NCBI RefSeq assembly: GCF_018734325.1
Contig: NZ_CP073754.1
Span: forward strand, 744,001-808,000
Origin: Methylomonas paludis
GTDB taxonomy: Bacteria > Pseudomonadota > Gammaproteobacteria > Methylococcales > Methylomonadaceae
Length of the DNA: 64,000 nucleotides
Direction: 5' to 3'
Shown: piece after piece, positions 168-10,925 of the stretch
Position numbering within the stretch: position 1 is the stretch's first letter
Layout of the letters: every line of letters begins with the position of its first letter
Program-made: the position numbers and the translations under genes
Notes under the pieces: generated by a model
Databases searched by the model: none
The model's input: only the letters and a program-made list of their open reading frames with translations
Told to the model about the DNA's origin: nothing

Positions 168-1457
168 TTAACCGGTTACTAAGTTTAGGCCATCATTATT
201 TGGTAATTGTGGCGGCAATTGGGGGATACCGGCCTGCTTGGCTTCGGCCAGTAACACGGGTAAAAAGCACTGTTCTATCCAGGTATTGACAGATTCCCAA
301 GCCTGACGGTTGATGGGAGCAAAACCGTGCGCCAATATGGAACTATTTCGAGTTTGGAGGTGGTGAAGCAGATTTTCCTTTTGGGTATTAAAAAAGGCAG
401 TCGCCGGCCCATCAGTTTTTATCGCCACCAGTTGCCAGGCATTGTGAAGTGCGGCCTGCCATTGCCCCTCCCTATTTTGGGTTAAACTCAAACCGGCTGG
501 TATCTGCTCTGCCGGCACGTTTGCGGTTTCGATACCGGTCTGGCTAAGTAACAGCCATTGCGCAGTCCACTCCAGCAAACGGTAAATCCGGGCGATGGCA
601 TCGTCATAACGGCCTTGCGCGGCACGGCGCTGGGCATTAAGGTATAAGTCCAGCAATCGGGCTGCGGTTTGTTTTGTGGCGTTTAGATCGTTAAGCCGCG
701 TTGCGCAGCCAATATAGCGCCTTTGCTCATTATTTAAAGTACCGGCCTGTTTTTGCAATATATCCAAGGCCATTGGATGATTAAAATTATCCCATTCGGC
801 AAAAGCTCGGCTCAGTTCACGAAAACGGGTATATTGGCTACGTAACTTTGGGCTGGTTGGCGCAGTAATTTGCCGCAAGCCTTCATAGGCTTCGCTGTAG
901 GCGTAACGCGACCAGGCCTGCCGAAACGGTGCTATCTGTCGCTCAAACCGGATTTGGGAGCTGTTGGCCTGCGCACTGTATTGGGAACCGTCGTAAACTT
1001 TAATTAAATCGGCACGGCTGCCGGTGACCAGTTGCAGCTTGACTTCCGGCCATTCCAGTGCCGCCATTACCAGCCCGGCGCTCATGGATTTAGTGCCGCC
1101 TGTGTAGTCGGCGATGATATGGGCCCCTGGAAAACGCTGGGCCAAGGTTTGCAATTCGACGGTACAAGTTTGATAGATAGCGTCAAGATCGTCCGCTATG
1201 CTGATGCAAACTTGGTATTGATCTGTGTTTAATCCGGTTTGGGTGGGGATATTCGGTAAAGTGGGTTTGGCATCGGTAAATTGCGCCTTAATACAGTTAC
1301 CCACGCCGATAATTTGCACTTTCGAACCCGGCTGACCACTGGCCAGGTCTTTATCGGTGCAGATAAACACCACATGATCAGGCCGTACTTCGTTAATGGC
1401 GCTGACGATGGGCTGATGGCTGCCGCCAACAGTGCAAATGAGTATGGTAGGGGTCAT
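168..1457 (-). CDS. CRISPR-associated CARF-HEPN protein, TIGR02710 type (Csm6/Csx1-like)
   Basis: A 429-residue protein. Residues 1-150 look like a CARF domain (TILICTVGGSHQPIV at the start, then ADYTGGTKSMSAGL around residues 125-140). The C-terminal part is helical and contains R370-x6-H377 (RNSSILAH), the R-x4-6-H signature of HEPN ribonucleases. Proteins of this kind are non-specific RNases switched on by the cyclic oligoadenylate made by Cas10. I chose ATG at 1457 because the CARF strand begins there; the frame is open to 1550 but that would overlap csm5 and add an unrelated basic leader. The gene lies 34 bases after csm5. Family membership is firm; the exact ligand ring size cannot be read from the sequence. 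Confidence 0.85.
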   Translation of the reverse strand: MTPTILICTVGGSHQPIVSAINEVRPDHVVFICTDKDLASGQPGSKVQIIGVGNCIKAQFTDAKPTLPNIPTQTGLNTDQYQVCISIADDLDAIYQTCTVELQTLAQRFPGAHIIADYTGGTKSMSAGLVMAALEWPEVKLQLVTGSRADLIKVYDGSQYSAQANSSQIRFERQIAPFRQAWSRYAYSEAYEGLRQITAPTSPKLRSQYTRFRELSRAFAEWDNFNHPMALDILQKQAGTLNNEQRRYIGCATRLNDLNATKQTAARLLDLYLNAQRRAAQGRYDDAIARIYRLLEWTAQWLLLSQTGIETANVPAEQIPAGLSLTQNREGQWQAALHNAWQLVAIKTDGPATAFFNTQKENLLHHLQTRNSSILAHGFAPINRQAWESVNTWIEQCFLPVLLAEAKQAGIPQLPPQLPNNDGLNLVTG

Positions 1458-1491
1458 GGTATATGGTGTTTGTCCCAACTTCTTTTCAAAG

Positions 1492-3213
1492 TTACAAGTT
1501 TTTGAGTAATTCCTTGGCCTTGGCATTTTTTGCCGCCCCAATGTAGTCAAGAAGTAATTTAGCCACTACCAATAACTCGGCTTTAGCTTCATCTGGCCAA
1601 TCGCTGGCTTTTGTCACCAGTGCGCGTAAAGCCGTATAAAGCGGCCCACCGATTTGTTCGCGCACTTTGCTGTTTTGCTTTTGGCTTAACAGTTGTCTTA
1701 ATACTTCAATTTGCCTTTGTTCGTCGCTCATTATGGCAAGTCGCCGTTGCTCGGCCTGTGCTTCAATGCGTTTCTTTTCCGCATCTGCCTTTTCTTCTGC
1801 TATACGTTCCAATCGTTCTGATTCTTCCCGTTGGCGCTTATCTGCCGCCGTTACGCGTTTTTCAGCCAGATCCGATATGTGGGCGGCCAATTTTTCCGCC
1901 CACAGCCGCGCGTCAGCAGTATGCTGCTCGCACAATTCAGCTAATTCCGTCCAATCTGGAGCAGAGGCATCACCGGGTGAGATCTCTACCAGTACCCAGC
2001 CGAACGGCAATAAGCCGTTGCGTTGTTGAGGCTGGTCGGCGGCCAGCCATAAGGTTTTGGTTTGAGGCTGATATTCTGGTGTGCCTTTCATGATTTTGAT
2101 GTGGCGTACGCCGTTTAGGGTGATCGATTCTGCGCCGGAATGGCGGCCCACCCTTAATAAAAACACTTCGCCTTTCTGCATTTTAATAGCCATTGTCGAT
2201 AGTAGCGCCTGAATGCTGTTATCCCAAGCATCGTCTAAAAAACCGCGCTCGCGCAGTATTTTTATTTCGTTTTTCAAAATGGGTAAATAAAAACTGCTGC
2301 ATGTTTTGGCAATTTGCGAGATTGTGTAGCGTAAGTCAGCGCTGGGTTGCTTCTGGTTGTGTCCGGTGATATTGATCTGTTGCAGATTAAGCTGGCCGCA
2401 AAACGCCCGGTAACGCCATGCCGGTAGGCATTCGAGTAATTTAGAAAGATTTTGCTTCTCCGCATTACTGTATAGTTCAGTGCCGTTTTTATCCCTTTTA
2501 AGTTCTTTTTTACGATTAACGCTGAACTGCACTTGGGCGCTGGGTAAGTTATCCTGGCTGCACCAGGCCGCATCGCTGATTTGTACCAAACGTAGGGGAT
2601 CTTGTTCAAATTTGCTAAATAATTTCTGGTTAAGCTGGGGGAAAAGCTTATTTTGTTCTTTTTCGTATTTTTTACGTTCGAATTTTTCCAATTTATCAAT
2701 TTTAAACCAATTAGTTGCGTTATCTGACAACGGCTGGTTTTGATTTGCAGCGTTTAATAAAGCAGTTCTTAAGGCGCCTTTGATGGCGGAGCCGAATAAC
2801 ACTGGTCGACTGGTCACGGGGTTGTAAGCGGTGCGGCCTATCTCCAGTTTATTGATAATTTGAACGCCGTTGCCTTGTTTATTCGCCGTTTGGCCGACTC
2901 GGGCTGCATAGAGTTTGGTCACCCCATCCAATACCGGTAAGGTATTTTTGGCCCAGGGTTTTAGGGCTTCACGCTGCCGGTAAAAAAATGCCTGCACAGC
3001 TTTGAGTATATCGTCGGATTTGCCGCTGACGATTTTTTCTAATTCCTGTCGGGCGGTTGCGTCTAAAGCCGCCAGAGCGCCGCCACTGTCAAACTCGTAT
3101 AGACATTGGTCGTCTATCACATAATTAGTCGGCTCATAACTATCGCCAGTGCCGATGTGAATCGGGGACAGCGGCGTGTAGTGGAGTGTGTAATTCTGCA
3201 AAAAATAGGTCAT
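1492..3213 (-). CDS. csm5: type III-A CRISPR RAMP protein Csm5
   Basis: A 573-residue RAMP-fold protein. The start (LSPIHIGTGDSYEPTNYVID) is the hallmark of Csm5, which caps the crRNA 3' end of the Csm complex. RPVLFGSAIKGALRTALL (about residues 137-155) is the conserved S-x-IKGA-x-R loop that contacts crRNA. The protein is longer than many Csm5 proteins: residues about 450-513 are a strongly charged Glu/Lys/Arg-rich coiled coil, followed by a 60-residue helical tail. That extension is not part of the core fold. The start overlaps the csm4 stop by 4 bases (ATGA), so translation is probably coupled. Confidence 0.9.
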   Translation of the reverse strand: MTYFLQNYTLHYTPLSPIHIGTGDSYEPTNYVIDDQCLYEFDSGGALAALDATARQELEKIVSGKSDDILKAVQAFFYRQREALKPWAKNTLPVLDGVTKLYAARVGQTANKQGNGVQIINKLEIGRTAYNPVTSRPVLFGSAIKGALRTALLNAANQNQPLSDNATNWFKIDKLEKFERKKYEKEQNKLFPQLNQKLFSKFEQDPLRLVQISDAAWCSQDNLPSAQVQFSVNRKKELKRDKNGTELYSNAEKQNLSKLLECLPAWRYRAFCGQLNLQQINITGHNQKQPSADLRYTISQIAKTCSSFYLPILKNEIKILRERGFLDDAWDNSIQALLSTMAIKMQKGEVFLLRVGRHSGAESITLNGVRHIKIMKGTPEYQPQTKTLWLAADQPQQRNGLLPFGWVLVEISPGDASAPDWTELAELCEQHTADARLWAEKLAAHISDLAEKRVTAADKRQREESERLERIAEEKADAEKKRIEAQAEQRRLAIMSDEQRQIEVLRQLLSQKQNSKVREQIGGPLYTALRALVTKASDWPDEAKAELLVVAKLLLDYIGAAKNAKAKELLKNL

Positions 3214-4196
3214 AAACTTTCCTTGGGATTCAGTTTAATCCCCATAACCGGGGCATAGCCCTGATGCACCGTGGTCGGCAGGGTTTTGGATAATTGAGCA
3301 TTGCCGCCTATGCCTTGACCGATAAAACCGGATTGTGGTGGGGCCACGCCGAACACGGCAGCGGTATTAGCCAGTAAGATCGGGTTTTTGAAAGGTTTGC
3401 CGTCCTGTTGAGCGGCCATGTCGCCATGTCGGCCAAAACGGGTAAAAATTTGATAATAGCTATGCTTGTCGTCAAAGTCTAAACCTTGTGGTGCGCAGGG
3501 GCTTAGCGTTAAGCTGGCGTTGGCATCTGGCTGTGCGGGTAACTGGATTGTTTGAAAATCATCAATTTTAAATTTCCCCATACCGATGCTGGCATCTTTG
3601 CCATACCCAAAGCTGCCGATGTCTGTTAGGCATTGCCGGCAATCTGCTACGTTTACGCGCGTGGTATCCAGCAATAGGTAGATTGTCCAGCGTAAGCCGG
3701 GAATAAACCATTCTTGCTCTACACTGTAAGGGGCAAAACCTGTTGGGCCGGTGGTGTTGGTCTGGCGGTTGATGGTGTTATGCGCTTGTGGATGAAATTC
3801 GCTAAGGCTGTTGAAATGGATAAGTGAATTTTGCTGTTCTGTTAAGGTGTTAATAATGCTTTTGGGGTTTACTGCGTGTTGCAGCCATTCCTGTACAGGT
3901 TTTTGAAAATCATTTTCAGGTAGAAAAGTGCGTTTTTTCAGGCTTTTGTGATCTTCGCCCTCCGGTAAAATGAAATAATTGCTGGGTAATTTGGGCAAGG
4001 GTAAATAGTTTTCCGGAAAGGCGTCGGACACCACGGCAAACGGTTGATTATTTACATAGCCATCTAGGGCCTGATGCAATTGATTTTCACCAAACCGATT
4101 GCGGATGGCCCAGCATAATTGACCAAACAGGGTATCTCCCTTGAGTAGGGTGGCAAAAGCAGATTGCAAGCTGATGATTATTTGGTACGTTTCCAT
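3210..4196 (-). CDS. csm4: type III-A CRISPR RAMP protein Csm4
   Basis: A 328-residue protein. The N-terminus shows a RAMP strand followed by LLKGDTLFGQLCWAIRNRFG, the typical Csm4/Cmr3-class pattern. Csm4 binds the crRNA 5' tag and joins the Csm3 backbone to Cas10. The C-terminal half contains a glycine-rich stretch (DIGSFGYGKDASIGMGKF), another RAMP hallmark. ATG at 4196 directly abuts the TAA of the PIN-domain gene (4197-4199), which ties csm4 translation to the toxin-antitoxin pair upstream. No frameshift or missing core motif is visible. Confidence 0.9.
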   Translation of the reverse strand: METYQIIISLQSAFATLLKGDTLFGQLCWAIRNRFGENQLHQALDGYVNNQPFAVVSDAFPENYLPLPKLPSNYFILPEGEDHKSLKKRTFLPENDFQKPVQEWLQHAVNPKSIINTLTEQQNSLIHFNSLSEFHPQAHNTINRQTNTTGPTGFAPYSVEQEWFIPGLRWTIYLLLDTTRVNVADCRQCLTDIGSFGYGKDASIGMGKFKIDDFQTIQLPAQPDANASLTLSPCAPQGLDFDDKHSYYQIFTRFGRHGDMAAQQDGKPFKNPILLANTAAVFGVAPPQSGFIGQGIGGNAQLSKTLPTTVHQGYAPVMGIKLNPKESL

Positions 4197-4598
4197 TTAT
4201 AACTCCCAATCATCCAATTGTAAGCCATTAATCCGCGAAAATTCATTGGTGTTGTGTGTAACTAAAGTCAGATTATTGGCTAACGCTATTGCCGCAATTT
4301 GCAGGTCATAAGGCCCTATGGGTTTGCCCTGTCGATACAGATCAGCACGAATTTGTCCAAATATCAGCGCAGCTGTATCGTCAAACGGCAAGGAATGAAA
4401 CGCAGATAAAAAAATCTGTTGTTTCTCCAGGGTTTGTTGCGGGCGTTGGCTTTTCATAGCGCCATAAAACAATTCGGACTTCACCACCGAGCAAACCGCA
4501 ATATCATGTGGGTGGCGGCTGAGTAACTGTTTGCCGACTTTAGAGTCCGGTTGATTAAGATAAACCACGCAGACATTGGTATCCAGTAAAAAACTCAT
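4197..4598 (-). CDS. VapC-like PIN-domain toxin inside the csm operon
   Basis: A 133-residue PIN-domain protein with the usual acidic set: D7 in LLDTN, E43 in VKSELFYG, and the aspartate in PYDLQIAAIAL, followed by VTHNTNEFSRI near the end. This is the pattern of VapC RNase toxins, which cut tRNA or rRNA when not held by their antitoxin. It starts 4 bases inside the end of the preceding small gene (ATGA overlap) and its stop abuts csm4. The reading frame and acidic residues are intact, so it should be active. Its location between csm3 and csm4 is unusual. Confidence 0.85.
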   Translation of the reverse strand: MSFLLDTNVCVVYLNQPDSKVGKQLLSRHPHDIAVCSVVKSELFYGAMKSQRPQQTLEKQQIFLSAFHSLPFDDTAALIFGQIRADLYRQGKPIGPYDLQIAAIALANNLTLVTHNTNEFSRINGLQLDDWEL

Positions 4599-4840
4599 TC
4601 CAACTCCAGGCGGTTTTCATAATCGCCTTGCGGTGCACGCTCAATAGGGTCGCCAGCCAGACAGCCGGCGGTTGCTGCAAAAAATCCCAGCGGCCAGCCA
4701 TTGGCGTCAGTTTCAGGTCGTGGTTGGCTTTCGGTTTTATCTAGCGGCCAGAGAATCACTTCCACAGTTTTATGTTGCAGCTCTATAGGTATTTCTATCG
4801 TGCTGGGGGCATCGTAATAAATTTGGCGTATGGGTTGCAT
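4595..4840 (-). CDS. VapB-like antitoxin paired with the PIN toxin
   Basis: An 81-residue acidic protein. The N-terminal 35 residues (MQPIRQIYYDAPSTIEIPIE, then a VEVILWPL strand) resemble the swapped-hairpin DNA-binding half of VapB/AbrB-type antitoxins. The middle motif NGWPLGFFAATAG and the C-terminal ENRLELE are typical of small antitoxins found with VapC toxins. It overlaps the csm3 stop by one base (TGATG) and the toxin start by four, so the three genes are translated as a chain. Assignment rests on the pairing with a PIN toxin plus this motif pattern. Confidence 0.75.
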   Translation of the reverse strand: MQPIRQIYYDAPSTIEIPIELQHKTVEVILWPLDKTESQPRPETDANGWPLGFFAATAGCLAGDPIERAPQGDYENRLELE

Positions 4841-5562
4841 CAGGCGGCCTCATGCAGTTTCAAGTTGGTAAGTCTGGTTTGGATGTCTTCATCATCCAGC
4901 TTCAGTTCTCGGAAAATAATTTTGCCGTAGCCGCGTGAGCCAGAGCCGCCTAATCCGGTGAGTTCCAGCAGCTTTAATCCGGTCAAAATGCTGTCCAGCA
5001 GATTTTCGTTGTCATGCACCCGTAGGGTCAAATTAAAATCAAATTTGGCGGTTGCAGGAACCCGTTCGGTATTGCGCGGATTTTCTGCAGTGCCTTTAAT
5101 GCGATCTATGGTATTTTCCATTTTGGTTTCAGTCAGCGGCAAAGTTTTGTCGTTAGTCATCATTTGTACCCATTTCGGATCAAGACTACAATCCCAAAAC
5201 GCTAAACGACTTGGACCAATTTCTTTCAACAATTGGCTATTAATGTTGTTATCTGGCGCACCACCAAATAGTTTTAGCAAGTCTTTGGCCTTTATCTGGA
5301 TCCTGCTGTCCAGTCCATCAATATGTTTAAAACTTAAGGGCTGACCTTCTGTTTGCCCGACTACACCTAACTGCCATTCCAGCAAGCTACGCATTTTGCC
5401 TTTTATACTGGAACCTGGAATATAAGGTTGTTGAGTAATTGGATTCTTGATCACCGGGTTATCGGTACCGCCGATATGAATTTCAGTATTGCCACTACCG
5501 ATATGTAAACCGCTAAGGATTTCAATTTTACCGGTTATCTTTTGAATATTAGTAAGTTGCAT
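4840..5562 (-). CDS. csm3: type III-A CRISPR backbone RNase Csm3
   Basis: A 240-residue RAMP protein of normal Csm3 length. Csm3 forms the repeated backbone of the Csm complex and cuts bound target RNA every six bases. The catalytic aspartate lies in IGGTDNPVIKNP as D34 and is present, followed by IPGSSIKGKMRSLLE, the crRNA-binding loop. GLGGSGSRGYGKI near residues 205-217 is the conserved glycine-rich loop. A good Shine-Dalgarno (AGGAGA) precedes the ATG, 10 bases after csm2. Target RNA cleavage should therefore be intact. Confidence 0.93.
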   Translation of the reverse strand: MQLTNIQKITGKIEILSGLHIGSGNTEIHIGGTDNPVIKNPITQQPYIPGSSIKGKMRSLLEWQLGVVGQTEGQPLSFKHIDGLDSRIQIKAKDLLKLFGGAPDNNINSQLLKEIGPSRLAFWDCSLDPKWVQMMTNDKTLPLTETKMENTIDRIKGTAENPRNTERVPATAKFDFNLTLRVHDNENLLDSILTGLKLLELTGLGGSGSRGYGKIIFRELKLDDEDIQTRLTNLKLHEAA

Positions 5563-5572
5563 CAGGGTTCTC

Positions 5573-6019
5573 CTAGTCTTTTGGTCTTTTTTCTTTGTAA
5601 AAGCCCATAAAGGCTTCCATAAACAATTTGAAAATCTGTAAGGTTTTTACGCTATCAACTTGATCAAGACTATCATGTAATAATTTGACAAAATTATCGT
5701 CTATCAGGGTTCTGCCTTTTGCATAAGCTGCTTTTGCGTTAATCATACGAATGAAAGGTAAATATTCATCGAACCTATCTGGTTGCAAACTTGCTTTGTT
5801 TTCCCACATCACAATTTCATTGTAAAAACGGCGTAATTGAGTAGGCTTATTCGATTTCCTGTTATCAGCGATGGTTTCAGCCACTTTTTGAGCCACGCTA
5901 TCGAATAAGTCAGCATGGATGTCTTTAAACCTAATTTTTGATGTATCAAGCGGCTCAGGCTTCTCATCATGTCCGCCCCGATAAGCATTACCATATCGTT
6001 GTTGTGGTACTGTCGCCAT
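5573..6019 (-). CDS. csm2: type III-A CRISPR small subunit Csm2
   Basis: A 148-residue, mostly helical protein. The pattern TQLRRFYNEIVMWENK, then FIRMINAKAAYAKGR and a C-terminal helix FKLFMEAFMGFY, is the typical Csm2 five-helix bundle that lines the target RNA in the Csm complex. The first 25 residues are low-complexity and probably disordered. AGGAGA sits at a proper distance before the ATG. It lies 49 bases after cas10 and 10 bases before csm3, inside the same operon. Confidence 0.92.
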   Translation of the reverse strand: MATVPQQRYGNAYRGGHDEKPEPLDTSKIRFKDIHADLFDSVAQKVAETIADNRKSNKPTQLRRFYNEIVMWENKASLQPDRFDEYLPFIRMINAKAAYAKGRTLIDDNFVKLLHDSLDQVDSVKTLQIFKLFMEAFMGFYKEKRPKD

Positions 6020-6068: not shown

Positions 6069-8753
6069 TTAATCTCTTTTTTGATAAAGATAGCAAAACA
6101 AACTTACTCGGTAATTACCACCATGTTTTTTAATCCCGGCATTGGCAATTTCTTTTGCTAATTCAGCCTGATAAGATTTTCGTTGTTTTTCGGTAAGCTG
6201 TTTTTTTTTCTCTAGCATCCTAGCTGTGCGATATGCAAAATAACTATACCATATTGCCTTTTCAGGCTTTTCATCAACTTTTTCCGCCATTTCGATCAGG
6301 TTAAGCATGCCATAAACGTATCCGGTACTTAAATTAATTTCTTTATTTAATTCCTGTAATTTTGGTAGTAACAGAGTTAATTGCTCTATAAATTTATCCC
6401 ACGACATTTGCTGCTTAAAACAGGTAACCGCATTTTTAGGCAGAGTTTCCTTATTCTCTGGATTATGCGCTTTGGCCTGTTCCAGCGCAGTTTCTGCCAA
6501 TTCAGCTAATTGCTTAATTGGCAAGCCGGGCTTGGTAGTGCTGATGCCTGCAGAGAAGTGTACTTCAGAATTTTCCGCCACAAAGTGTTGAAAAGCTTGT
6601 CGCATTTTCTCGGCCAGTTTAATTTGTGAAAACCAGGGGCCGATTAAAAAGAAATCGTCGCCACCGGCAAACACGGTGTATGTGTCTTGATATTCGGTTT
6701 TACATAACCAGGGCAGATAGACGGTGAAAAAATTATTGATTTGTCGGGATAATGCCGCTGTTTTACTGAAACTAACATCATTGCCAAGTCCGGTTTGAAA
6801 GATGAGGCCTAAGTTATCGACATCGCCTTTTAATGTGGAAAGGGCGCTGATACCTTGCCATTGGTCTTTTTCCAGCCGTGTACGGTCACTGCAAGCCAAA
6901 TGATTTAGGGTTTTGGTTGCGTCAATTTCCAATGGTTCTTCAATATTGACATATTTACCCCAAGCTTCTTCCGTAAGATCCTTTTGGTCGGCGATAGGCA
7001 CATAAGCGTTGATGTTACGCCGTGCGTAGCCGTTCCATAAGGGCTGTTCACCTGATTCCGGCAAGCTAAAGTCCCAGGCTCTGAGCAGATTGCCGCTTTT
7101 AGCTTCCGCACCGAATTTGCCTTTTTCATCTTCATCGCCGGTAAAACTGATGCAATAACCAAACATTGGTATGTTTAATTCGCTGTTCAGATTCAGGGTG
7201 TTGCGGGTAATCAGGATGCGTTTATGGCGGGTTAACCATTCGCCTATTTTCAGCTGATCATGGGCAAGCTTACTGATAAATATTTCTTCAACTGCCAATT
7301 GCGCCGGCGAGCGGCCATCAATTTTACAGACGCCTTTGGTGTTGTCGAAACTGTCCAGAAATGTATTGAATACCAGCGGCGCTTCAGCGCATAGATTAAA
7401 GCGCTGATATTTAATAAGCTCCATTTCTGCTATCAGTTTATTAATTAGTTTTCGATATGGGCTAAGCTTTTCAGTTGATTCGCTGTTGTTTTTGCGGCGG
7501 AAATCATTACAGGCGGCTTCAGTCCAGGCCAAGCCGACGCCGGCCTGGCCCCAGCTGTGTTTTAAAAACCAGTCATCCAGCTCCTTGCGGATTTGTCCTA
7601 AAATTGTTTTGGCGCTCTCCGTATTGGGGGCGACAATGGTAAATTTACCGGCGGCGTTGATTACCTGACTGGTAGCCGGTAAATCCAGCGCATCCAGCAC
7701 TTTTAAGGCTGCGCATTCACAAAGCAGTGATACATAAAACGAACGTCCACGTAATAATTTGGCTGCGCGTTTATTGGTTTCGCCGCCGCTGGCAAAAATA
7801 AAGTCTTGGATGCCGAAAAAGTCGCCCTGTATCAGTAAAAATTTGGCTTCTGTCCAACTTTGTTGCTGATCTTTTAATGCGTGGGCAGTTGCTTCACCAG
7901 TTTCGCCGCGTTCGTGATGATAGCGCCATAAAGCGGTTGCCAGTGCGGCTGTCACACGAGAATGATCGTACAAAGAAACATCCGGGCGCACGTTAAATGC
8001 CGTTGCTGAAGGGATGGCTTGGGTAAATACGCCCCATAAGGTTTCAAAGTGATCCAGCCATAACGACCAGTTGTTTCGATGCGAAGCGGGTATCTGTTTT
8101 ATCGCATCTGTAAAACTTTGCCATAAGTTTAAATATTCCTGCTGGGCTTGCTGCTTGTCGTTGCCTTCACAATCAGCTGCTTTAGCCGGAAAAATATGCA
8201 GCGGGGCAAGTGCTTTCAGTGGATAGCGGTATATAAACGATTGCGCGTTATTCCCGGTTTTGTGGATTTGTTCAAACAGGCTGAGTTGTCTGGCTGTGTA
8301 ATGATTCTTGCCGGTTTCTGTGCCTTCTTCGGCTTGGTTGTATTGTTCAAACTCTTCCCGATCAAAACCGGATGCCACCCGGTCGGCTGTGGCTATTATC
8401 CATTGCAGAAAAGTTTGCGGCTTATGGTGCATGGCGGCGGCGTTGATAAACGAATCGTCTGCTTCTTTGGTCTTCCATGAACCGAACGGCGCAAAATCTA
8501 TGCCGGTTAAGTCAGGCATATACGCTTCTATCACATCCATTGCCAAACCGGTATAGGCGGCATGGACATGGGTAAAGCGGACATATTTGTCGTCTGTAAA
8601 TTTTTTTTGCGTGGGACAATAAAGATGCTTATTACTTTCGATAGTATCTACGTCATTAGAAATTTTGCCGCGTTCAGCAAATTTCCCCAAGTCATGTAAA
8701 AACGCAGCTAGGGCGATACGGCTGGATTGTTCCAGCAATGGGGTAATACTCAT
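6069..8753 (-). CDS. cas10: type III-A CRISPR large subunit Cas10/Csm1
   Basis: An 894-residue protein with both catalytic centres. The N-terminal HD nuclease motif is FLHDLGKF (H20-D21), with more HD-domain histidines in FTHVHAAY and MHHKPQ. The palm-domain cyclase motif is FAGGDDFFLIG, with GGDD at residues 697-700. Cas10 cuts single-stranded DNA through HD and makes cyclic oligoadenylates through GGDD when target RNA is bound. The CARF genes around it fit this. The start overlaps the ring-nuclease gene by 4 bases, and AAGGAGA lies just upstream. No inactivating change is visible. Confidence 0.96.
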   Translation of the reverse strand: MSITPLLEQSSRIALAAFLHDLGKFAERGKISNDVDTIESNKHLYCPTQKKFTDDKYVRFTHVHAAYTGLAMDVIEAYMPDLTGIDFAPFGSWKTKEADDSFINAAAMHHKPQTFLQWIIATADRVASGFDREEFEQYNQAEEGTETGKNHYTARQLSLFEQIHKTGNNAQSFIYRYPLKALAPLHIFPAKAADCEGNDKQQAQQEYLNLWQSFTDAIKQIPASHRNNWSLWLDHFETLWGVFTQAIPSATAFNVRPDVSLYDHSRVTAALATALWRYHHERGETGEATAHALKDQQQSWTEAKFLLIQGDFFGIQDFIFASGGETNKRAAKLLRGRSFYVSLLCECAALKVLDALDLPATSQVINAAGKFTIVAPNTESAKTILGQIRKELDDWFLKHSWGQAGVGLAWTEAACNDFRRKNNSESTEKLSPYRKLINKLIAEMELIKYQRFNLCAEAPLVFNTFLDSFDNTKGVCKIDGRSPAQLAVEEIFISKLAHDQLKIGEWLTRHKRILITRNTLNLNSELNIPMFGYCISFTGDEDEKGKFGAEAKSGNLLRAWDFSLPESGEQPLWNGYARRNINAYVPIADQKDLTEEAWGKYVNIEEPLEIDATKTLNHLACSDRTRLEKDQWQGISALSTLKGDVDNLGLIFQTGLGNDVSFSKTAALSRQINNFFTVYLPWLCKTEYQDTYTVFAGGDDFFLIGPWFSQIKLAEKMRQAFQHFVAENSEVHFSAGISTTKPGLPIKQLAELAETALEQAKAHNPENKETLPKNAVTCFKQQMSWDKFIEQLTLLLPKLQELNKEINLSTGYVYGMLNLIEMAEKVDEKPEKAIWYSYFAYRTARMLEKKKQLTEKQRKSYQAELAKEIANAGIKKHGGNYRVSLFCYLYQKRD

Positions 8754-9865
8754 CCTCTGTTCTCCTTATCAAATTCAATCTGTTCTGCTATTAAGCCTAT
8801 CCGGTAACTAGTTTTAGGTCGTTTACCTTCAGCCTTGATCAAATACGCACTGGCTGCTGGCCCCAAAGTAGTTTCCAGTGTTTTATTGATACGGGATTTT
8901 CGCTGTTCAAAAAAGCTTTTGCTCATGCCATCTTTCAGGTTGATCAGGGTTCGATCTACCCCGCCTGTTGTGTTGTTCAAGGACAAATATTGCATTAAGT
9001 ATGCTGCGGCGTATTCAGGTTCTGGTGCGCCTTCGCAGGGGCAGGTGGGGGCTGCCTTGCTTTGGTGTTGGCGATTAAGCAACCATAGATAAAATGCCAG
9101 ATCAGCGGGGCTTAGTTTGATGGTTACGCCATGAGCCACCAGGGCATGGGCATGACTGTTCACGCGTAAACTTGCCGGGCCAAGGGCCTGTTGGGCTTTG
9201 GCAACCGAGGCGCTAAAACTGCTTTTGCCGTCCAGCAGGGCGTTATCCAGGCCATGCCGCAGTCGTACGAAGGCAATGTCGGCCAGCATGACTTCGGCGT
9301 TTTGGGTGTCCAGTGGCTTGCGTGTAGGGTCATTTGCATAAATGACTTGCGAGTAGGGGGTAGGGTAGTAAAACTGCGGATGCGATTCGTATTCTGGTGT
9401 AACCAGCACATGACTTAAACGGTCTTGTGGTCGGCCATATAGTGATAATGCGTAACCGGCATAAAAACCCATGGTTTTGCGGCCACCTGCAATCGAAACA
9501 TGCAAAGCAGTATCTGGATTTGCGGTCAGAGTTCTAATCCATTCGGTAATACAATCAGCCATAGCTTGATTATCGGTTTGGCTGCGGATGTCGGTTAAAT
9601 ACTCACCGTTGCTATTTTCCAGAACATGTATGTCGGCAATGCTGAAATTTACCGGCGGTAATTGATAATCGCTGTAGAGCCGCGCCAGCCAGCCATCATT
9701 TAATAAGGTTAATTGGGCGCGTTGAGAACCTTCTGCGGTGGTGAGAATATGAATTTGCTCAGGCAAGGTTGCGCCTTGCTGATAGAGTGCAAACAGGGTT
9801 TCTGTTACCACTTGAGGCGTTAGTCCGGTAACTGCCAGCAGTATGGAATGGGGTTTAGTTGTCAT
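8750..9865 (-). CDS. Csm6-type CARF/ring-nuclease protein (NE0113 family)
   Basis: A 371-residue protein. The first 170 residues are a CARF-like Rossmann domain (ILLAVTGLTPQVVTETLFAL at the start and VSIAGGRKTMGFYAGYALSL around residues 124-143). This combination defines the NE0113/PF09623 family, currently annotated as CRISPR-associated ring nuclease Csm6. Such proteins bind cyclic oligoadenylates and can degrade them. The C-terminal 200 residues are helical and I see no R-x4-6-H HEPN motif there; the last part (about residues 290-365) could be a winged-helix fold. It overlaps cas6 and cas10 by 4 bases on either side, so it is co-translated with them. Ring-nuclease activity is inferred from the family, not visible directly. 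Confidence 0.82.
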   Translation of the reverse strand: MTTKPHSILLAVTGLTPQVVTETLFALYQQGATLPEQIHILTTAEGSQRAQLTLLNDGWLARLYSDYQLPPVNFSIADIHVLENSNGEYLTDIRSQTDNQAMADCITEWIRTLTANPDTALHVSIAGGRKTMGFYAGYALSLYGRPQDRLSHVLVTPEYESHPQFYYPTPYSQVIYANDPTRKPLDTQNAEVMLADIAFVRLRHGLDNALLDGKSSFSASVAKAQQALGPASLRVNSHAHALVAHGVTIKLSPADLAFYLWLLNRQHQSKAAPTCPCEGAPEPEYAAAYLMQYLSLNNTTGGVDRTLINLKDGMSKSFFEQRKSRINKTLETTLGPAASAYLIKAEGKRPKTSYRIGLIAEQIEFDKENRG

Positions 9866-10851
9866 GTTGGCATTATCAGCGATTTTGTTGCCGATTCATG
9901 GGCTGGCAAGCTTGTCGGTTTAATGGTATAGGCACCCATGCCCATCATCGTACCTTTACCAACATGAGTAAATTGCCCCAACCACAGATAGGGCCAAAAT
10001 TCTTCCAGATCATGCAGGTCCAGTTCGACGGTTCCGATTACTCCGCCCATTTGCATCTCCGTTTGCTGGCGTGAGGAATAACGTGTCCAGTCGTACCAGT
10101 TTAAGTTTTGACTGCTGAACTGGACGGTTTTGGCGCGCACAACTAAGCCGGCAAAATCGGTGTCCAGCGGATTGTCGGTATGAAAATAACTGATTAGGGA
10201 AATCCGCCGTAATAGGGCACCAAAAAATGCCGCGAAAGTAAATCCGGCATCTGCCACATTTTTGCTGTTTTGCTGGATTCGAATCGGGCTATTAAAACTA
10301 ATTTCAATCCGATTCGGCATGGCAGGGACATTAGGACTGCTGGCAGGTGATTGCGCTAATAGTTCCCCCCGCTCATAAACCAATTTTTCTTGATCATCTA
10401 GTCCAATCTCGGCAATTCGGACTAGTTTGAATATTTGCCGGTGCCCACCTATTCCATTCATCCCTGCTGTTTGTAAGGCATGAATGATATAAGGAAAATA
10501 GCGTTGCCCATGTCCAAACAATACCGTATCTAGCTGGTAATAGTCATTGATCTTGGTGCTACCCTGCGTTAAACGCAATACCACTGGATGTGGGGTGGCG
10601 TTATATTTGCGCATTTTTTCGGTGTTGGCGGGAGGCGGAGTTTCAAAAATATAGCTGTAAGCACAGGCATTTTTTAACAAACATTGTTGACATGGAGTGT
10701 TGCGCACTACACAAACTGTGCGTTTTAGTGCGTGACCAAATGCGCCTCGCCAAGCTGAGCCTGAATATTCCGGCAGATGAATTTTTTCACCGGTGTCAAA
10801 ATAAAATCGGTAGATTTTTAAGGGAATTGTGGGTTGATTGGTTTTAGCCAT
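9862..10851 (-). CDS. cas6: CRISPR pre-crRNA processing endoribonuclease Cas6
   Basis: A 329-residue protein and the first gene of the operon. It shows the PF10040-type Cas6 pattern: an N-terminal SGSAWRGAFGHALKR segment, a cysteine cluster (CVVRNTPCQQC, then C with five residues between), and a C-terminal glycine-rich loop GKGTMMGMGAY. It would cut repeat RNA to make crRNAs for the Csm complex. I chose ATG at 10851 because a perfect AGGAGG lies 7 bases upstream; the open frame extends to 10917 but through promoter-like DNA. Its stop overlaps the next start by 4 bases. Confidence 0.9.
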   Translation of the reverse strand: MAKTNQPTIPLKIYRFYFDTGEKIHLPEYSGSAWRGAFGHALKRTVCVVRNTPCQQCLLKNACAYSYIFETPPPANTEKMRKYNATPHPVVLRLTQGSTKINDYYQLDTVLFGHGQRYFPYIIHALQTAGMNGIGGHRQIFKLVRIAEIGLDDQEKLVYERGELLAQSPASSPNVPAMPNRIEISFNSPIRIQQNSKNVADAGFTFAAFFGALLRRISLISYFHTDNPLDTDFAGLVVRAKTVQFSSQNLNWYDWTRYSSRQQTEMQMGGVIGTVELDLHDLEEFWPYLWLGQFTHVGKGTMMGMGAYTIKPTSLPAHESATKSLIMPT

Positions 10852-10902
10852 ATAAAACCTCCTTGTTATTATTGTCCAGAATCTAACAGTAAAATTGATT
10901 GC

Positions 10903-10916
10903 TGACAAGCTTGTCA
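10903..10916. promoter_or_regulatory. perfect 14-base palindrome at the cas promoter
   Basis: TGACAAGCTTGTCA is a perfect palindrome. On the minus strand it lies inside TTGACAAGCTTGTCAG, so the -35-like hexamer TTGACA overlaps its edge, 52 bases before the cas6 start. The spacing to a clear -10 is poor. A dimeric repressor or activator bound here would control the whole csm operon. The site itself is certain; its role is inference. Confidence 0.5.
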
Positions 10917-10925
10917 ATAAATGTG

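Follow-up and report, generated by a model that had tools for sequence, protein, structure and literature searches.

Among the described toxin-antitoxin (TA) modules, the VapBC group specific for tRNA(fMet), with VapC structures from Shigella, Salmonella and the F plasmid, comes closest to a gene pair that we report here from Methylomonas paludis, where it lies between csm3 and csm4 of a type III-A CRISPR operon. The stretch analysed, referred to below as the window, comprises 64,000 nucleotides (744001-808000 of a single 3.67-Mb contig). The pair shares with the tRNA(fMet) group the PIN fold and the active-site acids of the toxin, the antitoxin gene placed first, a 4-base overlap and a score above the NCBIfam cut-off for one profile. 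Unlike that group, its antitoxin has neither a recognised family nor a solved relative, and the pair is built into the csm operon, where no gap between the genes is left for a promoter of its own.

CRISPR-Cas systems are known to be guarded by CreTA, a toxin-antitoxin pair of two small RNAs with Cascade-mediated repression (PMC12737573, PMC8730458, PMC9458426). The logic proposed for CreTA, that loss of the CRISPR operon frees the toxin, resembles the one considered below, whereas CreTA is RNA-only and the present pair consists of two proteins inside a type III-A operon. A CreTA-like RNA guard was rejected for this locus, given that the window holds no ectopic match to the array repeat (0 matches to 25 repeat bases at up to 3 mismatches, a setting that misses more degenerate repeats). 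Toxin-like ribonucleases (RNases), including PIN proteins, have been linked to type III operons (Makarova et al. 2012; PMC3506569), and the present case differs from the toxin domains described there in that whole TA pairs are embedded. The CARF-fused type III effectors (Csm6/Csx1, CARF-RelE, CARF-PIN) are likewise RNases encoded in a type III operon; the protein described here is instead a stand-alone PIN protein with its own antitoxin and no CARF domain found.

The original prediction regarded the arrangement as not previously known, and this stands within the literature searched, which had gaps: no report of a type II TA module inside a csm operon was recognised there, surveys of CRISPR accessory genes not being covered. 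Such surveys of CRISPR-linked accessory genes were reportedly made by Shah et al. in 2019 and Shmakov et al. in 2018. If the guard reading set out below holds, the finding would run counter to a published premise, that immunity loci are without typical antitoxins.

A VapBC pair in an unbroken translational chain

The two genes had been predicted to be VapBC-like and to form one translational chain with csm3 and csm4, and both points are upheld, the junctions to the base. The csm3 gene ends in GCC TGA, whose last base opens the antitoxin gene (ATGCAACCC), giving TGATG with 1 base shared; the antitoxin ends in GAA TGA within the toxin start ATGAGT, giving ATGA with 4 bases shared; and the toxin end TTA TAA is followed by csm4 (ATGGAAACG) with zero spacing (TAA/ATG). 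No intergenic space around the pair is left for a promoter of its own, and antitoxin and toxin are probably co-transcribed.

The toxin matches Pfam PIN at 62.4 bits and scores above the NCBIfam cut-off for tRNA(fMet)-specific VapC (NF047863, 148.9 bits vs 140), while it stays below that of a second tRNA(fMet)-specific VapC model (NF010285, 99.6 vs 143 bits). Its AlphaFold2 model has a predicted local distance difference test score (pLDDT) of 95.5 and matches Shigella VapC with a template modelling (TM) score of 0.94. Residues D6, E42, D98, N116 and E119 are kept in 10/10 csm-resident toxins aligned (a count that excludes loci L212 and L214; L and G numbers are our handles for loci and genomes), the choice of the catalytic ones among them being our assumption. 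A dead PIN pseudogene is therefore not supported for the 10 copies checked. The ratio of nonsynonymous to synonymous differences (pN/pS) is quoted alone because synonymous divergence (dS) is saturated in many comparisons. For the toxin it is 0.15-0.30 when csm3/csm4 copies are compared (five comparisons) and 0.08 for the two copies that lie downstream of csm5. Among the five, the toxin value lies below those of both csm3 and csm4 in three; in L129/window and in L133/L148, where csm3 is partial, csm3 has the lower value. We thus regard the toxin as a predicted PIN-fold ribonuclease with a conserved acidic active site, placed in VapBC together with its partner.

The 81-amino-acid protein is what we call the antitoxin, from its position, its overlap and its pairing with the toxin in relatives, since no model of Pfam, NCBIfam or PADLOC matches it at E 0.001, its profile finds 0 hits in the PDB at E 0.1, and its predicted structure is of low confidence (pLDDT 67.8). 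Its gene is adjacent to, upstream of and overlapping that of the toxin, with ATGA at the overlap, as is typical of VapBC. When it was aligned with 9 homologues, 8 of them adjoined a same-family toxin and one (L127) a toxin scar. A close paralogue in the same genome supplying the antitoxin was rejected, as the four other PIN matches there (E up to 0.001) are only 28-45% identical, one of them having internal stops.

Recurrence of the arrangement among relatives

The search for Csm3 (E up to 1e-15) covered a sample of 251 genomes of the order, which is presumably Methylococcales; same-family relatives coincide with loci named Methylobacter, Methylococcaceae and Methylococcales. Csm3 was present in 48, and the csm3/csm4 joint was readable in 39; the count leaves out G096, where the contig breaks off inside csm3, and a further eight matches that are distant (G194, G141, G143, G115, G106, G003, G105, G242), among which G003 alone was inspected. 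An intact VapBC pair occupies 8/39 joints (the window, L006, L129, L132, L133, L137, L148, L156), a different VapBC with a DUF2281-type antitoxin, another PIN protein and ATGA-type overlaps occupies one (L150), and seven hold remnants (L123, L127, L136, L141, L143, L154, L157). Two more intact cases, L212 and L214, emerged when the whole family of 237 genomes was searched with a toxin alignment. The order csm3-vapB-vapC-csm4 is thus found in 10 genomes, the window's own included, and remnants in 7 more loci. Relatives do share the arrangement, whose absence from all of them the original prediction had named as the sign of a recent chance insertion. Two of the 10 genomes (L137, L156) come from another family of the order (f4).

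Toxins resident at the csm3/csm4 joint do not form one clade (approximately unbiased, AU, test, p 6e-47, with 14 long-branch rows left out). A separate toxin tree took in matches that scored 50 bits or more and were 115-160 amino acids long (74/77 after duplicates). Since csm-resident toxins fall in at least two lineages, the joint appears to have been occupied more than once. In a later tree, which left out 22 rows, all non-csm, one csm group unites the window and L006, a second (support 100/99) L129, L212, L214, the copy of L148 downstream of csm5 and the copy of L096 beside csm6 fragments, and a third L132, L133, L137, L148 and L156. Stand-alone toxins (L007/L008, L100/L213, L105) fall among the first and third groups, so that csm residence may be long-standing, with the free copies having escaped from it, or the free state may have come first. 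A recent single chance insertion was rejected, because the arrangement recurs in two families and at least two toxin lineages occupy the joint.

Loss, scars and possible gain at the joint

The toxin is destroyed in 7/7 remnants. The whole antitoxin is kept in L127 and L141, it is fused in frame to the last toxin codons in L157 and kept in part in L136, L143 and L154, and in L123 only scraps of both toxin ends are left. An intact toxin without antitoxin was found in none of the 39 readable joints. A toxin always destroyed and never left alone is the pattern that an active toxin would impose.

A clean joint, TGATGCAA or TAATGCAA, is seen in seven loci (L120, L121, L122, L126, L128, L130, L134). 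The motif ATGCAA opens the antitoxin gene of the window and of most aligned copies; csm4 starts with it too in L129, L132 and L148, though not in the window. Because it stands at both starts in some loci, deletion between two ATGCAA copies could have produced some of the clean joints. A possible gain is seen in L129: this locus carries the pair, and the two loci nearest to it by their csm genes, L122 and L126, have the clean TGATGCAA joint. Identity of L129 to these loci is 81-100% in most of the compared stretch and drops only beside the insert (against L122, to 53% over the final 60 bp of csm3 and to 70% over the first 60 bp of csm4), as if the cassette had arrived by recombination with another csm operon.

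TA modules at other joints and in restriction operons

The pair appears to belong to a wider habit, in which type II TA modules lodge at the joints of multi-gene defence operons. L148 has a second VapBC after csm5 (the contig ends before csm6), and in L058 csm5 and csm6 flank an antitoxin and a toxin that is broken (1372-1802). Another contig of the same metagenome-assembled genome (MAG), L008, carries a very similar antitoxin with an intact toxin (7747-8402). The L096 contig starts a short way upstream of the pair, which is followed by csm6-like and csm5-like fragments. The Methylobacter MAG L006 has three TA pairs at consecutive csm joints (1160-5516): VapBC at csm3/csm4, a HicB-like open reading frame (ORF; sub-threshold match) with HicA at csm4/csm5, and a classical VapB-VapC at csm5/csm6. 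The csm2/csm3 joint holds a ribbon-helix-helix (RHH)-like ORF (sub-threshold) with a PemK/MazF-type toxin in L166/L184, a nucleotidyltransferase with HepT in 2/12 phylum-level loci (L171, L172) and, in a third (L169), a nucleotidyltransferase as the one gene confirmed. At the cas10/csm2 joint of L152 we found a DhiT-like protein (96.3 bits vs a cut-off of 100) with a sub-threshold DUF2442 match, and on the plasmid pACLO of Arcobacter cloacae, csm5 and a TM1812-family gene enclose a PIN gene and a small ORF that overlaps it on the upstream side. All TA pairs found run in the operon direction, within scans that could miss antisense TA genes: outside the order they read the operon strand only, and a listing of gaps covered those above 150 bases, its antisense ORFs not being profile-searched. 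If the guard reading holds, the gene joints of defence operons suggest themselves as a place to look for TA modules.

Relatives of the toxin also lie in type I restriction-modification (R-M) operons, between hsdS and hsdR in L180, L216 and L217 and between hsdM and an hsdS-like gene in a cyanobacterium (L011); further TA-type genes are present in the operons of L180 and L216. Of the 16 best toxin matches in the whole-family search, 10 fell in csm loci, L096 among them, and csm and type I R-M operons together accounted for 13 of the top 20. A mostly csm-resident query alignment biases these shares upward; of the remaining listed matches, part had their contexts read.

Inserts other than TA modules occur in csm operons as well (transposase-like, GIY-YIG-like and Csx16-like ORFs, named by eye). 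In L121, L122, L126 and L129, ORFs resembling repetitive extragenic palindrome (REP)-associated transposases, or their remains, were recognised by eye in the cas10/csm2 joint.

Proposed role and rival explanations

We propose, at a probability of roughly 0.5, that the csm operon has captured a whole VapBC module of type II, which would guard it while also providing a fail-safe arrest. Antitoxin and toxin would be made mainly from the csm transcript, so that renewal of the antitoxin would depend on continued csm expression. Were the operon cut or silenced or its mRNA destroyed (as might follow from disruption, from shut-off by a phage or from collateral cleavage of RNA by Csm6), the antitoxin, presumed labile, would decay first and VapC would halt translation, presumably via cleavage of the initiator tRNA. 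The module would then act as operon guard and as fail-safe growth arrest, two roles that would share one circuit and that sequence alone does not distinguish. If the guard reading is true, type III CRISPR gains a protein counterpart of the CreTA RNA guards, and the long-standing hypothesis of a coupling between immunity and suicide or dormancy becomes testable; related operons with the pair, with the antitoxin or a scar only, and with a clean joint form a natural control set. A broader and more tentative suggestion is that type III-A CRISPR and type I restriction operons have repeatedly been fitted, at their internal gene joints and in translational register, with complete protein TA modules of several unrelated families as tamper or shut-off alarms. 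Whatever stopped expression, be it a countermeasure of a phage or the RNA degradation that the operon itself sets off, would then starve the antitoxin and arrest the cell.

Several observations weigh against a guard. Seven relatives have shed the toxin yet keep their csm genes, and nothing assignable was found in 23/39 readable joints (among them L149, where ~630 bases are inserted, the single ORF listed there being antisense and outside the profile searches, and L135, with a short unclear stretch); because of both, a guard or addiction would be escapable. The addiction proposed in the original prediction is, with this limit, compatible with the data. No VapBC was found at the csm3/csm4 joint in 6 class-level and 12 phylum-level loci outside the order, in ORF scans of the operon strand that could miss antisense TA genes (in phylum-level L177, csm4 is unmatched, yet an ORF overlaps the csm3 end). 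In the 7 plasmid loci read, out of 22 csm3 records, csm3 is followed by the next gene without an insert. Close toxin relatives lie outside recognised defence operons in L008, L179, L181 and L213. A promoter scan returned 2 promoter-like sites against 2.6 expected, and one of them, at this chance level, lies within csm3 on the operon strand (5031-5002) and might conceivably act as an internal promoter.

A serious rival, and a quite possible one, is selfish or neutral residence: VapBC would spread alone, with the csm3/csm4 joint as a safe landing place, and would bring the host no gain, the module being protected since its loss is penalised. The patchy presence of the pair on the csm tree (39 loci), the multiple toxin lineages in one joint, the insertion in L129 beside clean closest relatives, the repeated decay to scars and the toxin relatives outside defence operons all fit such a history. 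Less easily accommodated are the concentration of toxin matches in defence operons, even with a csm-biased query, the five csm-resident toxins that form an all-csm clade (100/99), and the like behaviour of several unrelated TA families. It is considerably less probable that the pair serves as a dedicated effector, with the Csm6/Card1 response to a recognised target removing the antitoxin mRNA, freeing VapC and so adding tRNA cleavage to an abortive response. Collateral nucleic-acid cleavage is expected of a system with Cas10, Csm6-HEPN, CARF and Card1-like proteins, and this one has Cas10, Csm6-HEPN, the NE0113 CARF protein and a Card1-like protein; copies of the pair also occur downstream of csm5 (L148, and L058 with its broken toxin). 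No CARF or other sensor domain was found in the toxin, where PIN is the only domain, or in the antitoxin (Pfam, NCBIfam, PADLOC), and most of the joints read either lack the pair or hold it in broken form. The earlier suggestion of the PIN RNase as a further Csm effector thus gains no direct support, and a CARF-type effector activated by cyclic oligoadenylate (cOA) was rejected for want of any CARF or cOA-sensing domain found in either protein. Csm3 and Csm4 are subunits needed in different copy numbers, and a pair placed between their genes might do nothing but alter the Csm3:Csm4 ratio, toxin activity being irrelevant; with the low pN/pS and the conserved active site of the toxin, and with insert-free joints being common, we consider such a spacer very improbable.

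Features of the locus

The operon reads on the minus strand in the order cas6, NE0113-family CARF gene, cas10, csm2, csm3, antitoxin, toxin, csm4, csm5, csm6 (Table 1). The Cas10 translation has readable HDLGK and GGDD motifs, whose usual meaning in a cas10 product we assume here, and the true start of csm6 may be an internal ATG. Because a Card1-like CARF gene, a CRISPR array, cas2 and cas1 adjoin the window (L183), the locus is a full type III-A system; 59 copies of the repeat-bearing unit were counted in this array.

Table 1. Coordinates and supporting matches of the genes of the csm operon (window positions) and of toxin relatives in type I R-M operons (positions in each locus)
Feature	Position	Strand	Support
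cas6	9862..10917	-	PF10040 69.1 bits
NE0113-family CARF protein / putative ring nuclease	8750..9865	-	TIGR02584 224.2 bits; PADLOC CARF5
cas10 (csm1)	6069..8753	-	TIGR02578 704.8 bits
csm2	5573..6019	-	PF03750, TIGR01870
csm3	4840..5562	-	TIGR02582 222.9 bits
VapB-like antitoxin, 81 aa	4595..4840	-	position, overlaps, pairing with toxin in relatives
PIN-domain toxin VapC, tRNA(fMet)-specific family, 133 aa	4197..4598	-	Pfam PIN, NF047863
csm4	3210..4196	-	TIGR01903 143 bits
csm5	1492..3213	-	TIGR01899 38.7 bits vs cut-off 38.3
csm6 (CARF-HEPN ribonuclease)	168..1550	-	TIGR02710 198 bits; Pfam Csm6 HEPN domain
Toxin relative and upstream antitoxin-like ORF, type I R-M, L180	2590-4001		
Toxin relative and upstream antitoxin-like ORF, type I R-M, L216	3099-4381		
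Toxin relative and upstream antitoxin-like ORF, type I R-M, L217	9814-10418		
Toxin relative and upstream antitoxin-like ORF, type I R-M, L011	7723-8408		

A transposase-like ORF, named by eye, lies inside the CRISPR array of the window's genome (L183, 6089-7459). Toxin relatives were also seen in a similar-looking cluster in L019 (4059-11326) and L215 (725-7031), the proteins being alike by eye and including, in L019, a Sel1-repeat protein and proteins of 443 and 560 amino acids with no Pfam match; this is possibly an undescribed cluster.
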